From the NCBI GenBank assembly GCA_902779035.1, contig CACZAH010000005.1, positions 1 through 58,354 of the forward strand: a stretch of 58,354 bases of DNA, in the 5' to 3' direction. The notes below the pieces were generated by a model. That model searched no databases, was not told where the DNA came from, and was given only the letters and a program-made list of their open reading frames with translations. The number at the start of each line of letters is the position of its first letter. Positions within the stretch are counted from its first letter, which is position 1. Below are positions 40,221-47,729 of the stretch, one piece after another. The DNA is from an uncultured Erysipelotrichaceae bacterium. Its GTDB lineage: Bacteria; Bacillota_I; Bacilli_A; RF39; UBA660. Both the position numbers and the translations under genes were made by a program.

Positions 40221-41376
40221 ATGAATAAAGTATATAATAGTCAAGATGAAATTGCAAGTAATATCGTGGAACTTTTAAAAAAATGTGGAATTTTAAGAAA
40301 AACTTGTGCTTAAGATTATACCTTATATTATTATCGGAATGATTTCAGCTAGTTCTTCTGTTGCTTCTGATATTGCTGCCAAGTTAAAAGGAAGTTTTTC
40401 TTTAGTTCAGCATGATTCCGTTATCAGAAGAATAAAAAGATTTTTTACTAATAAACTTTTTAACCCCTATGATTTTTACGATAAAATCATAAGATTTGTT
40501 ATTTCTAATTATACTATAAAGCATAGTGATAAACGTGTACACATAGTTTTTGACCATATGTTTTCTCACGATAATTACACTGTTTTTATGATTACATTAA
40601 GAGTGGTGAAACTTGTGCATTCCGTTATGGTTTAGATGCTATAAAGGGAAAGATGAGCCTAAAGCATTGGATAAGGGAATGTTAAAAAAAGGAATCTCAT
40701 ATGCGTCATCACTATTTCCAGCTGACTATGACTTAATATTTCTTGCTGATAGATGGTTTAATTCAACTTTACTTCTTGATCATATTGATTCCTTAGGAAG
40801 AACCTATGTTGTTAGACTAAAAGGAAATATAAGGTGTTATGTTTATGATAAAAAAGAGGGGCATAAAATTTGGACAACTACTGGTAATTTATACGCTTAT
40901 GAAAACAAATCAGCATTCTATAATGATATTGAAATTACTAACAAGCAATTTAAAACAAATATCACAGTAAGTAAAAAGAAAGGTGTTAAAGAACCATGGA
41001 TTGTTGCCACAAATTGAGATACTAAAAGAGCTATTAAAGATTATGGTTATCGCTTTGGTGGAATAGAAACAGTATTTAAAAATCAAAAATCTAATGGTTT
41101 TTATTTAGAATCAACGGTTAAAGCTGATATCAAATATTTTGAATCAATGTATACTTTTGTCTATTTTCTGTACTTTTTCTTACAATATATGGAGCAAATT
41201 ATACTAAAAACTCCAAATGTTATAAAAACGTCAAAGTTACTACCCACAAATATATCAATGGAACTAAAACACGAGTTATGTCTTTGTTTAGCATAGGACT
41301 AATGTTATTTAATAAAGCAATAAATTCCCTGAAATACATTCGGATACCTTTCGCACTAAAATTGTACGATACCTAA
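40221..41376 (+). pseudogene. IS4-family DDE transposase, broken
   Basis: The gene can be followed through three frames. It begins MNKVYNSQDEIASNIVELL, shifts frame near 40306 into LKIIPYIIIGMISASS, shifts again near 40605-40613 into CIPLWFRCYKGKDEPK, meets an in-frame TGA after PWIVATN at about 41016, continues as DYGYRFGGIETVFKNQKSNG, and shifts a third time near 41160 to end in SLFSIGLMLFNKAI...YDT at 41376. The motifs are those of IS4-type DDE transposases. Three shifts and one stop make it inactive. Confidence 0.85.
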
Positions 41377-41606: not shown

Positions 41607-42500
41607 TCATGCCGAGATTTCAGATTTAGAAAGTATTATAACTGGACGAACTTTGCCACCTAAATTGACATCATTGTAGGTCAAACGCCCATCATATACC
41701 ATATACCAAACTCTATTTGATGATCCGTTATATGAACTCATTGTCCAATATTGCAAACCATTATATAACCAATTTGGAACATTCTCACCTTTTGAATAAC
41801 TTGTTTCTGAATTTTTTATATATCCCAAATTTATTAGATCTTCTACCGTTATTAAGCGAACTTCTTCAGTTTCTGGTGCATTAACTACTTTCCAAGCATC
41901 TAATGTAGTTTTAATGTATGAACCATCATATTCGTTACTATTTGAATGATACATCATATTTCCAACTCCACCTCCAATCACATCAGCTCCAGGTGAATAC
42001 TCTATAATTTCATCAGAACTCAATGGCTCTTTTTTTAACAACTTAACATTCAATTGTTTAGAATCACTATTCTCTATTACATAATAATCAACACCATTAT
42101 ATGTTACTTCATCTCCTACTGAATATGTATCATATGTTACAACTTGTAATTTTCCATACTCATAATCACCTGTACTTCTTCCAGCAACAGTACATCCAGT
42201 TAAGTATACAGAGGAATCACTGTTTAACTGTGTAGTTTCACATACTACTTCATTACCACTATATTCAATTGTAAGTTGATCTATTGATGTTGGAAACCTT
42301 CCTGTATCTAGTAAATATGAAGCTATTGCTAGTTCTATAGATCTACCATATGCATCTACACTACGTCTATCTGCAGATATTCTAGCTTTTCTTATTATGT
42401 TCATTACAAGTGGAGTAACTATTAAAGCGATAATTGCCATTATTACTAATACTGCTATTAACTCTATCAGAGTAAAAGCATTTCTTTTTCTTTTAAACAT
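41607..42500 (-). CDS. pilin-like surface protein with C-terminal sensory/lectin-like domain
   Basis: The 297-residue protein starts KRKRNAFTLIELIAVLVIMA, a prepilin signal (cleavage before FTLIE) and the hydrophobic helix of type IV pilins/pseudopilins. After a linker, the C-terminal domain (about 125-297) contains VGDEVTYNGVDYYVI, then YWTMSSYNGSSNRVW...GGKVRPVIIL. This is a Trp/Gly-rich end reminiscent of C-type-lectin or FGE-like folds used for display and binding. It is the intact paralogue of 8420-9294. No pilus assembly genes lie nearby. SD GAAGGT. It lies 33 bases from the IS4-like element. Confidence 0.82.
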   Translation of the reverse strand: MFKRKRNAFTLIELIAVLVIMAIIALIVTPLVMNIIRKARISADRRSVDAYGRSIELAIASYLLDTGRFPTSIDQLTIEYSGNEVVCETTQLNSDSSVYLTGCTVAGRSTGDYEYGKLQVVTYDTYSVGDEVTYNGVDYYVIENSDSKQLNVKLLKKEPLSSDEIIEYSPGADVIGGGVGNMMYHSNSNEYDGSYIKTTLDAWKVVNAPETEEVRLITVEDLINLGYIKNSETSYSKGENVPNWLYNGLQYWTMSSYNGSSNRVWYMVYDGRLTYNDVNLGGKVRPVIILSKSEISA

Positions 42501-42688: not shown

Positions 42689-42716
42689 TTGACACATGTA
42701 TTATACGTGTTAAAAT
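42689..42716 (+). promoter_or_regulatory. promoter of small-peptide unit 1
   Basis: TTGACA (42689-42694) and TAAAAT (42711-42716), spacing 16. The predicted transcript begins at GGATATG, 42725. Confidence 0.7.
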
Positions 42717-42813
42717 ATTTATTCGGATATGTTTGAATTTCAGATGTTTTCCTTTCGTAAAAACAATTTGGCTTATGAAACAGTGGGTTTTGGTTACGAA
42801 AGGATGTGGTAGT

Positions 42814-42885
42814 ATGACTAAGAGAGAATTACGATTAGTAATAATCATTTTAGTTCTAATTATCATAATAATTTTAAGTAATTAG
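42814..42885 (+). CDS. 23-residue hydrophobic peptide, candidate type I toxin (unit 1)
   Basis: The peptide MTKRELRLVIIILVLIIIIILSN has a basic N-terminus and a single hydrophobic helix, the usual form of membrane-acting type I toxins. Its ribosome site AAGG is inside a perfect 10-base inverted repeat, CCTTTCGTAA (42751-42760) with TTACGAAAGG (42794-42803), which would hide it. The mRNA 5' end GGATATGTTTGA (42725-42736) can pair with TCAAACGTATCC (42955-42966) at the 3' end, and TTTCAGATGTTTTCC (42738-42752) with GGAAACGTCTGA (42935-42946). I recognise no named toxin family. A second, diverged unit follows. Confidence 0.7.
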   Translation: MTKRELRLVIIILVLIIIIILSN

Positions 42886-42966
42886 AAAAAACATCTGAAA
42901 CATTATAAGCCTGTTTCAGATGTCCCCACGTTAGGGAAACGTCTGACAACCACTTCAAACGTATCC
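42886..42966 (-). ncRNA. candidate antisense RNA of unit 1
   Basis: On the minus strand a TATAAT lies just upstream of the start GGATACG (complement of 42960-42966). The RNA would run about 80 bases to a near-ideal terminator: ACATCTGAAAC-loop-GTTTCAGATGT followed by TTTTTT (complement of 42885-42923). It would be fully complementary to the 3' part of the peptide mRNA. The -35 is poor (TGTATA at 17 bases) but is conserved in both units. Confidence 0.6.
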
Positions 42967-43073
42967 TTTTTTATTATATGAAGCATTGCTTCCTATATAC
43001 ATAATATCACAAAAATTAGATTTGTGCAAATAGAACTTGGAAAAAAATATTTAATTTTATTACATTAATTTAG

Positions 43074-43103
43074 TTGCACCATTCATCTATTTTGTGTTAT
43101 AAT
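43074..43103 (+). promoter_or_regulatory. promoter of small-peptide unit 2
   Basis: TTGCAC (43074-43079) and TATAAT (43098-43103), spacing 18. Transcription would begin at GGATACG, 43110. Confidence 0.7.
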
Positions 43104-43189
43104 GTACCCGGATACGTTTGAAATTCAGATGCTTCCTCCTATTATTATCAGGGGACTTTGGTCTAATCTTAATATATAGGAGGTACAAT

Positions 43190-43285
43190 ATGAAAAATAC
43201 TACCAGAGAAAAATTTCTGTGTGTTTTTATATTTCTATTATTAGTGATAATTATATTACTTGTAATAGTACTTATCAAAAGATAA
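43190..43285 (+). CDS. 31-residue hydrophobic peptide, candidate type I toxin (unit 2)
   Basis: The peptide opens MKNTTREKFLCVFIF and continues as one hydrophobic helix ending LIVIVLIKR-like with basic residues. It is preceded by a perfect AGGAGG (43178-43183), which is masked by CCTCCTAT (43135-43142) pairing with ATAGGAGG (43176-43183). As in unit 1, the mRNA 5' end GGATACGTTTGA (43110-43121) is perfectly complementary to its 3' end TCAAACGTATCC (43363-43374). ATTCAGATGCTTCC (43123-43136) pairs with GGAAGCGTCTGA. The peptide sequence differs from unit 1 while the RNA architecture is kept. Confidence 0.7.
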   Translation: MKNTTREKFLCVFIFLLLVIIILLVIVLIKR

Positions 43286-43374
43286 GCAAAGGCATCTGAT
43301 TCAACTATGTTGTTTCAGATGCCAACCACAAATTTAAATTGAGGAAGCGTCTGATTAACACATCAAACGTATCC
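43276..43374 (-). ncRNA. candidate antisense RNA of unit 2
   Basis: The same minus-strand TATAAT context as in unit 1 precedes GGATACG. A hairpin GGCATCTGA...TCAGATGCC (43291-43323) would end the RNA, followed on the minus strand by a weaker T-rich tract (TTTGCTTATCTTTT). It overlaps the 3' end of the peptide mRNA. Confidence 0.5.
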
Positions 43375-43467
43375 TTTTTTTATTATATGAAGCATTGCTT
43401 CCTATATACATAATATCACAAAATTTAGATTTGTGCAAATGAGTATCCAAAAATCCTGAATTTGATT

Positions 43468-43710
43468 TTATATCATTTTATCAATGTTCTTTGGTACTTT
43501 ATCATTTACTACCGCACTAATTATTTTATCTTCTTGCTCTTTAGTTACATTTCTACCTGTTACTTTAGATAATGTTTGTATTACCTCTCGAAGACTACCT
43601 TCATTTTTTAAGTCTGTTTCTTGTAACTTTTTAGCAAGTCCTAAAATAGTTTCCTTATTTACATTAGTTTTCTTTTCTACTCTATCAAAAAATCTATTAG
43701 AAAAAGCCAT
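43468..43710 (-). CDS. spoVIF: stage VI sporulation protein F
   Basis: The 80-residue protein matches the SpoVIF (YjcC) family over its full length: FFDRVEKKTNVNKETILGLA, then LREVIQTLSKVTGRNVTKEQ and IISAVVNDKVPKNID. In Bacillus SpoVIF is needed for proper spore coat assembly and GerE-dependent late gene expression in the mother cell. It has its own SD (GGAGGG) and lies beside the small-peptide units. Confidence 0.85.
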   Translation of the reverse strand: MAFSNRFFDRVEKKTNVNKETILGLAKKLQETDLKNEGSLREVIQTLSKVTGRNVTKEQEDKIISAVVNDKVPKNIDKMI

Positions 43711-46538: not shown

Positions 46539-47729
46539 TTAGTTTTGTTTTTTTTTAAATATTTTCAACATAGATAAACAAAATTTTCTTATTATGTTAA
46601 GGTTTTTCTGTGTATTTTCAACAAAACAAGTATTTTTGTCTTCTTGAAATACTGTGTCTAAATAAAAATGCAATTGATTCTCGATACACCACTCATTTCG
46701 TATTCCACTGCTAAGTATTTCAATTTCCTTAGAATCAATATTCGATATAAAGTATCTAGTATCAGTTTTTGTTTCGTTATTTTCTACATAAGTTCTTTTT
46801 GCAATTCCAATCGATTTTAATTTAAGCCATTTTTCCTTGTTAGGTAGCCAATCTATGTCGTTTATAAAAATATATTCTGTTTTTTCAACAGTTCCATGTG
46901 CTTTTTCTACAACTAATTTATAAGATTCTTTTTTTGCTTCATTATATAATTTGTTATCACTAAAATATTCTACAAGATTATTTTCTAATGCCTCCTGATT
47001 ACCTTTAACAGGAGCAATATAGTATCCTTCGTTTCCAGCAATATAATCGATAGTATCTTTTTGAGTGCTTAAAGCATCAAAAGTAACTAAAGTATTTTTA
47101 ACATTTACTCGTTTAAGTAATTCTGGACCAGTTAGTATTTCATTTGTCTTATCACCAATAAATTCAGTAGCTTCACAATTACCGTTTTTTACTGAAACAA
47201 TACTCATTGCGTTCATTTTAGATACTTTACCATTTTTCGATGATTTCCTATCAGAAGAATTGGCTATTTTACCATCCATTGGCTTAATATCTTCAATTAT
47301 TAAATCACCATTTTGATATAATGGTGCATTATTCTTTAAGAAATTATTCATTACCTTTACGCATAACTGCTCTAAGTCAGCAGGTTTTATATATGAAATA
47401 ACTCTTCTTAATGTTGATATAGATGGCATTCCATTATCGAAATATATATGTCTATCAAGCCAGTTAAAATGTTTACACATAAACAAATATATCTCTGTAA
47501 ATCTATTGCAGTTTGCCATCATAGCAAAAATTAATGTAAGAATAATATTTTCTAAAGAGTGCATTATATGTTCTTCGTCTCTTTTATCCACAACATAAAT
47601 AGCATTTGCTTCAATTTCATATATTAATTCACAGCAAACATTAATATTTTCTATTTCATTTTCATTAATTATATATTTATCAGAAATAATACTTGATAAT
47701 TTATCAAGGACTTTAGATTTTCTAGACAT
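46539..47729 (-). CDS. ISAs1-family transposase
   Basis: The 396-residue protein shows ISAs1/H-repeat features: SISTLRRVISYI, then the first catalytic Asp region KPMDGKIANSSDRK, VTFDALSTQKDTIDYIAGN (second Asp) and NEWCIENQLHFYLDTVFQED with the DDE glutamate. It appears full length and unbroken. It lies inside clear inverted repeats with intact target duplication, so it may still be active. SD GAAGGT. Confidence 0.9.
   Translation of the reverse strand: MSRKSKVLDKLSSIISDKYIINENEIENINVCCELIYEIEANAIYVVDKRDEEHIMHSLENIILTLIFAMMANCNRFTEIYLFMCKHFNWLDRHIYFDNGMPSISTLRRVISYIKPADLEQLCVKVMNNFLKNNAPLYQNGDLIIEDIKPMDGKIANSSDRKSSKNGKVSKMNAMSIVSVKNGNCEATEFIGDKTNEILTGPELLKRVNVKNTLVTFDALSTQKDTIDYIAGNEGYYIAPVKGNQEALENNLVEYFSDNKLYNEAKKESYKLVVEKAHGTVEKTEYIFINDIDWLPNKEKWLKLKSIGIAKRTYVENNETKTDTRYFISNIDSKEIEILSSGIRNEWCIENQLHFYLDTVFQEDKNTCFVENTQKNLNIIRKFCLSMLKIFKKKQN

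Follow-up and report, generated by a model that had tools for sequence, protein, structure and literature searches.

A multicopy family of type I toxin-antitoxin-like loci with predicted end-to-end clamped mRNAs in uncultured gut Bacilli

Background

Type I toxin-antitoxin systems are short and fast-evolving and are missed by homology searches. In the par/Fst-RNAII system of the enterococcal plasmid pAD1 (Fst/Ldr family), convergent promoters drive an mRNA of about 230 nt for a membrane toxin of roughly 30 residues, and an antisense RNA that overlaps its 3' part (PMC7472228). The SD of the toxin mRNA lies in a 5' stem-loop, the extreme 5' end is held in a helix, and the two RNAs share a bidirectional terminator. 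In the multicopy chromosomal AapA/IsoA loci of Helicobacter, hairpins form during transcription and the full-length mRNA for a membrane peptide of roughly 25-30 residues is closed by a long-distance 5'-3' interaction, which itself traps the SD until 3' trimming activates the message (PMC6733600, PMC8167048). The hok mRNA (hok/Sok, plasmid R1 and E. coli) likewise appears to fold its 3' end back on its 5' end, with metastable hairpins in the nascent transcript, and activation of the Hok type by 3' processing has been noted (PMC6733600). In Bacillus subtilis, the TxpA/RatA, BsrG/SR4 and YonT/SR6 systems use antisense RNAs of about 100 nt that overlap the 3' end of a membrane-toxin mRNA and probably inhibit it through RNase III cleavage or refolding (PMC6562991, PMC12390103, PMC5848175), although an end-to-end mRNA clamp does not seem to be part of these systems.

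The locus described here lies at positions 42689-43438 of a 58,354-nucleotide stretch (hereafter the window; contig CACZAH010000005.1, assembly GCA_902779035.1) from an uncultured Erysipelotrichaceae bacterium, and belongs to a 1.19-Mb, 51-contig draft genome. A first-pass annotation made from the sequence alone had proposed two tandem type I toxin-antitoxin-like units, each with a promoter, a short hydrophobic peptide, a ribosome site buried in a local stem, complementary 5' and 3' ends and an antisense RNA over the 3' half. These elements were all found in place, and comparison with more than 100 homologous units supports this reading in its core, although the position of the antisense promoter had to be corrected. 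The same annotation also inferred covariation from the two units, which two sequences could not show, but which the relatives do show.

Organisation of the two units

In unit 1, the toxin promoter consists of TTGACA (42689-42694), a 16-nt spacer and TAAAAT (42711-42716). The predicted mRNA of about 248 nt (42725-42972) has its start inferred from the -10 box and the conserved GGATA and its end inferred from a U6 tract. Its 5' clamp (42725-42752) comprises an outer arm GGATATGTTTGA (42725-42736) and an inner arm TCAGATGTTTTCC (42740-42752). The 3' clamp (42934-42966) comprises the inner arm GGGAAACGTCTGA and the outer arm TCAAACGTATCC (42955-42966), separated by an open inter-arm loop, and the outer arms pair with a single U-G. 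The SD is sequestered in a hairpin (42751-42803) in which CCTTTCGTAA pairs with TTACGAAAGG over 10 pairs (42751-42760 with 42794-42803). This is followed by the 23-residue toxin-like peptide MTKRELRLVIIILVLIIIIILSN (42814-42885) and by a central hairpin (42891-42923), which on the minus strand is followed by T6 and hence reads as an antisense terminator.

Unit 2 repeats this arrangement. Its promoter is TTGCAC-18-TGtTATAAT (43074-43103; TTGCAC at 43074-43079 and TATAAT at 43098-43103), followed by a predicted mRNA of about 272 nt (43110-43381) that ends in a U7 tract. The 5' clamp (43110-43136) has an outer arm GGATACGTTTGA (43110-43121) and an inner arm (43125-43136), and the 3' clamp (43343-43374) has an inner arm (43343-43354) and an outer arm (43363-43374), the outer pairing being perfect. 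The SD-sequestering hairpin (43135-43183) pairs CCTCCTAT with ATAGGAGG over 8 pairs (43135-43142 with 43176-43183). The toxin-like peptide MKNTTREKFLCVFIFLLLVIIILLVIVLIKR (43190-43285) has 31 residues, with homologues in the related loci L007, L047 and L175 (L-numbers denote homologous loci throughout). The central hairpin (43291-43323) is only a weak antisense terminator, and its U-run is weak.

Both predicted mRNAs fold far better than shuffled sequences, at -83.3 kcal/mol against a shuffle mean of -45.4 for unit 1 (z -7.7) and -97.5 against -47.6 for unit 2 (z -10.9), with 0 of 200 shuffles as good. A simple promoter scan of the locus was close to chance level (12 found, 7 +/- 3 expected), and the promoter assignments rest instead on conservation, the -10 box of the toxin promoter lying at a fixed 6-8 nt before the unit start in 93 of about 111 homologues.

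Distribution of the family

A DNA search of the host genome gave full or partial copies on contigs C1, C3, C15, C23, C25 and C28 besides the two in the window. Homologous loci in named records come from uncultured gut Bacilli assemblies from rabbit, rumen, goat and others. R1, a covariance model of the 3' module built from 22 units, matched 82 of 117 genomes of the host family (which has more than 260 genera in the search set), usually several times and up to 26 times (genome G292). About 30% of the sampled genomes of the family give no hit, although R1 may miss the divergent types. Among 247 genomes of the class R1 matched 20, of which 18 are in the host family, and among 195 genomes drawn phylum-wide it matched 2, both of that family. 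A match in a genome of another family (G221; locus L068, E 1e-8) is a convincing orphan-like 3' module and could be transfer or binning error. The family is spread over most sampled genera of one large uncultured gut Bacilli family, often in 5-26 copies per roughly 1.2-Mb genome, which is remarkable in such small genomes. Tandem arrays of three to four units at about 345-475-base spacing were seen at L103 and L115.

No sequence membership in any of the families tested was identified. At gathering score the only Rfam covariance-model match was a tRNA elsewhere in the window, and laxer thresholds gave only chance hits. Eight representative peptides had no match in Pfam or NCBIfam up to E = 1. 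Similarly, no viral contig and no phage matched, and the plasmid collection gave nothing but a chance 55-base match in one plasmid. No description of such a family was found in the open-access literature searched.

Conservation of the pairing

In an alignment of 22 units, the outer helix is paired in 22 of 22 sequences, with GC, AU and GU at one pair and CG/UG at another. Across the clamp, inner helix and central hairpin, 98.3% of cells pair, against 27-44% when the partner is slid by 1-3 columns, and both the number of cells changed on both sides and the covariation score exceed all 500 shuffles. To avoid circularity, 106 units were then chosen by their 3' end alone. Of these, 82 have a 12/12 partner and 6 an 11/12 partner at the expected distance upstream (88 in total), whereas shuffled upstream regions never exceed 10, and 73 of the 88 have a perfect TATAAT just upstream.

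A second subfamily, with arms GGAACATTTAAT/ATTGAATGTTCC and the peptide MNKKDFLILSLVI..., was found in 29 of 145 genomes, with zero hits of the reversed control pattern. Here 24 of 32 units have a partner of at least 11/12 (two shuffles reach 11) and 97.4% of cells pair, with change-on-both-sides counts above all shuffles, although most rows of this alignment had been chosen with pairing in view. A search by peptide start alone brought out a third type (L281, L282, L296 and L298), in which the same MTKRE peptide is accompanied by unrelated arms (GGATATATTTAA, GCGTTAGGTGCACTCC). In all, at least five arm-sequence types keep the same fold, including an SD hairpin of other sequence. Duplex energies between 5' and 3' ends are -30 to -40 kcal/mol for cognate units and mostly -8 to -25 kcal/mol between types. 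The secondary structure has therefore been kept through wholesale replacement of its helices, which is stronger evidence than single compensatory changes. L155 and L288 are apparent chimeras in which a 5' half of one arm type is joined to a 3' half of another, suggesting recombination between paralogues.

The peptide

Family members encode strongly hydrophobic peptides of 22-31 residues, interpreted as single-span membrane peptides with a basic N-terminus. Among 74 different homologous 25-codon ORFs, entropies at codon positions 1, 2 and 3 are 0.49, 0.24 and 0.79, and the ratio of mean dN to mean dS is about 0.16, indicating purifying selection. M-T-K-R-E and the hydrophobic core are nearly fixed. 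However, in L078 and L274 the toxin ORF is inactivated by a stop codon or a one-base insertion while the RNA elements are intact.

The antisense unit

The first-pass annotation had placed the antisense promoter at a minus-strand TATAAT, presumably those beside the U-tracts at 42978-42973 and 43387-43382. These exist but have no good -35 and read TAAAAT in many relatives, and remain only a possible second start. A better-supported promoter, TTGCAC-17-TGaTATTAT, lies about 25 bases further out on the minus strand, at 43029-43001 in unit 1 and 43438-43410 in unit 2. Across homologues it has the form TTGNNA-17-TGNTATTAT. Its -10 box is 33-35 nt beyond the sense 3' arm in 85 of 109 units, and in the 94 with a promoter at about this position the spacing is 17 in 83, with the TG extension present in most. 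The predicted antisense RNAs run on the minus strand over 42886-42994 in unit 1 (about 109 nt) and 43287-43403 in unit 2. Each would begin with its own hairpin beyond the sense 3' end (42980-42992 and 43389-43401), which in the family is often CAAG-GAAA-CTTG with a GNRA-like loop, would contain a copy of the mRNA's 5' arm and would end at the central hairpin.

Toxin and antisense halves are lost asymmetrically. Of 103 complete 3' modules, 19 lack an intact toxin ORF but keep the central hairpin that serves as antisense terminator, 17 of them also with the promoter. Such orphan antisense modules include L091, L095, L104, L105, L110, L147, L158 and L170, and in several (L095, L104, L105, L147, L158 and L170) similarity begins again close to the antisense terminator. 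Conversely, of 30 units chosen by toxin sequence with full context, the 29 with an intact ORF all have a 3' arm module when inspected by eye, as do 28 of 28 chosen by the 5' arm, giving 57 of 57 (Fisher p = 1.7e-4, without correction for relatedness among copies). This is as expected of toxin and antitoxin. One exception is L172, where an apparently intact toxin ORF is kept although the antisense body is deleted and only the promoter remains, so that the antisense transcript would run on into the toxin gene.

Folding and proposed mode of action

Computed folding of growing transcripts shows an order in which the 5' hairpin and the SD hairpin form first. At about 180-195 nt the 5' inner arm pairs with the first strand of the central hairpin. 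When that hairpin closes the 5' hairpin returns, and when the 3' arms appear both 5' arms lock onto them, directly against the U-tract. The pairings are conserved, while the dynamics are inferred. The intermediate pairing of 5' inner arm and central hairpin is possible in 98% of cells in both subfamilies, but covariation beyond shuffles is weak there because the same bases serve several helices. In the closed form the 3' arm is fully paired (probability unpaired 0.01), while the inter-arm loop is open (0.82), as is its antisense counterpart (0.61). That loop differs among paralogues of one genome, which makes it a candidate for specific first contact.

The SD is held by the local stem rather than by the clamp. 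Its computed accessibility is low throughout and is the same with and without the 3' arm, and trimming the 3' end in silico does not free it. The clamp is therefore not obviously what silences translation, and the AapA model is not adopted. More likely, the clamp protects the 5' end, hides the antisense target arm and supplies the terminator stem, no local terminator for the sense RNA having been found by a scan, but these roles are inferred. The antisense RNA, of roughly 110-120 nt and covering the whole 3' UTR, probably starts pairing by loop-loop contact at the open inter-arm loop, displaces the 5' arm and marks the toxin mRNA for cleavage, as proposed for RatA and SR6.

Taken together, the evidence strongly favours two members of an unnamed, multicopy chromosomal family of type I toxin-antitoxin-like loci, each with a 240-270-nt mRNA, where the RNAs and the toxicity of the peptide are inferred from architecture and comparison. 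Copies that lose the toxin can keep the antitoxin half. The first-pass annotation had compared the layout with hok/Sok and AapA/IsoA, but it is closest to par/Fst and to the 3'-overlapping B. subtilis systems. It shares with par/Fst the convergent promoters, the SD stem, the 5' end in a helix, the 3' antisense overlap and a Gram-positive host. However, the antisense RNA ends at its own hairpin in the 3' UTR rather than at a shared bidirectional terminator (the central hairpin is followed by a T-run on the minus strand only, the sense T-run lying about 45-50 nt further on), no DRa/DRb contact at the start codon was found, the 5' end pairs with the 3' end, and the peptide does not match Fst models. 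As in AapA/IsoA there is a long-distance 5'-3' interaction, but the antisense RNA is opposite the 3' UTR with its promoter beyond the sense 3' end. Compared with hok/Sok, there is no leader ORF coupled to the toxin, the antisense RNA is at the 3' rather than the 5' end, the peptide has about 25 instead of about 50 residues, and no Pfam, NCBIfam or Rfam match was found. The B. subtilis toxins TxpA, BsrG and YonT are longer, and no sequence relation to them was found. By the tests made, the family belongs to none of these, and it unites two regulatory devices otherwise described in different systems, an mRNA whose ends are paired and a convergent 3' antisense RNA. Its natural series of swapped helices, chimeras, decayed toxins and orphan antisense genes makes it possible to study how RNA-RNA specificity evolves and how cells rid themselves of addictive genes.

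A more tentative proposal is that the clamp is a checkpoint linking formation of the 3' end, silencing and antitoxin recognition, in which the mRNA's own 5' end forms the stem of its terminator and the antisense RNA mimics that 5' end and competes for the same 3' arm. Under this view, specificity would evolve by swapping whole helices under one and the same toxin, so that paralogues become independent toxin-antitoxin pairs, while toxin-free antisense copies would act in trans as anti-addiction RNAs.

Alternative explanations

It is possible, although unlikely, that the peptide is not a toxin but a small membrane protein, for instance a regulator of a membrane complex, with a structured and antisense-controlled mRNA, since it resembles no known toxin family. 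However, antisense units survive without the peptide whereas peptides almost never occur without the antisense unit, and multicopy, decaying paralogues and tight layered repression are usual for type I toxins, not for housekeeping micropeptides. Slightly less likely is that the antisense RNA is the main product, a trans-acting regulatory RNA whose orphan units act on paralogues or other mRNAs, with the peptide ORF secondary. The orphan units with promoter and terminator hairpin and the arms shared by paralogues in one genome would be consistent with this, but most units keep the peptide under strong purifying selection, and the clamp and SD stem make sense only for the mRNA. A small MITE-like transposable element, suggested by the 12-13-base terminal complementarity and by many dispersed and tandem copies between unrelated genes, is very unlikely, because conservation runs outwards past the repeats to a promoter on each side at fixed distance, G-U pairs are tolerated as in RNA, the repeats change sequence together by type, the peptide is under purifying selection, and decayed copies lose the 5' repeat while the antisense unit is kept whole.

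Near the locus, the window also contains a broken transposase-like gene in frameshifted pieces (40306-41017), a complete transposase-like ORF (46539-47729) and an 80-residue ORF on the minus strand (43468-43710). Three of the eight copies in the host genome (beside window positions 41607-42500, and at L006 and L008) lie next to paralogous pseudopilin-like genes (AFTLIELIAVLVIMAIIALI...).
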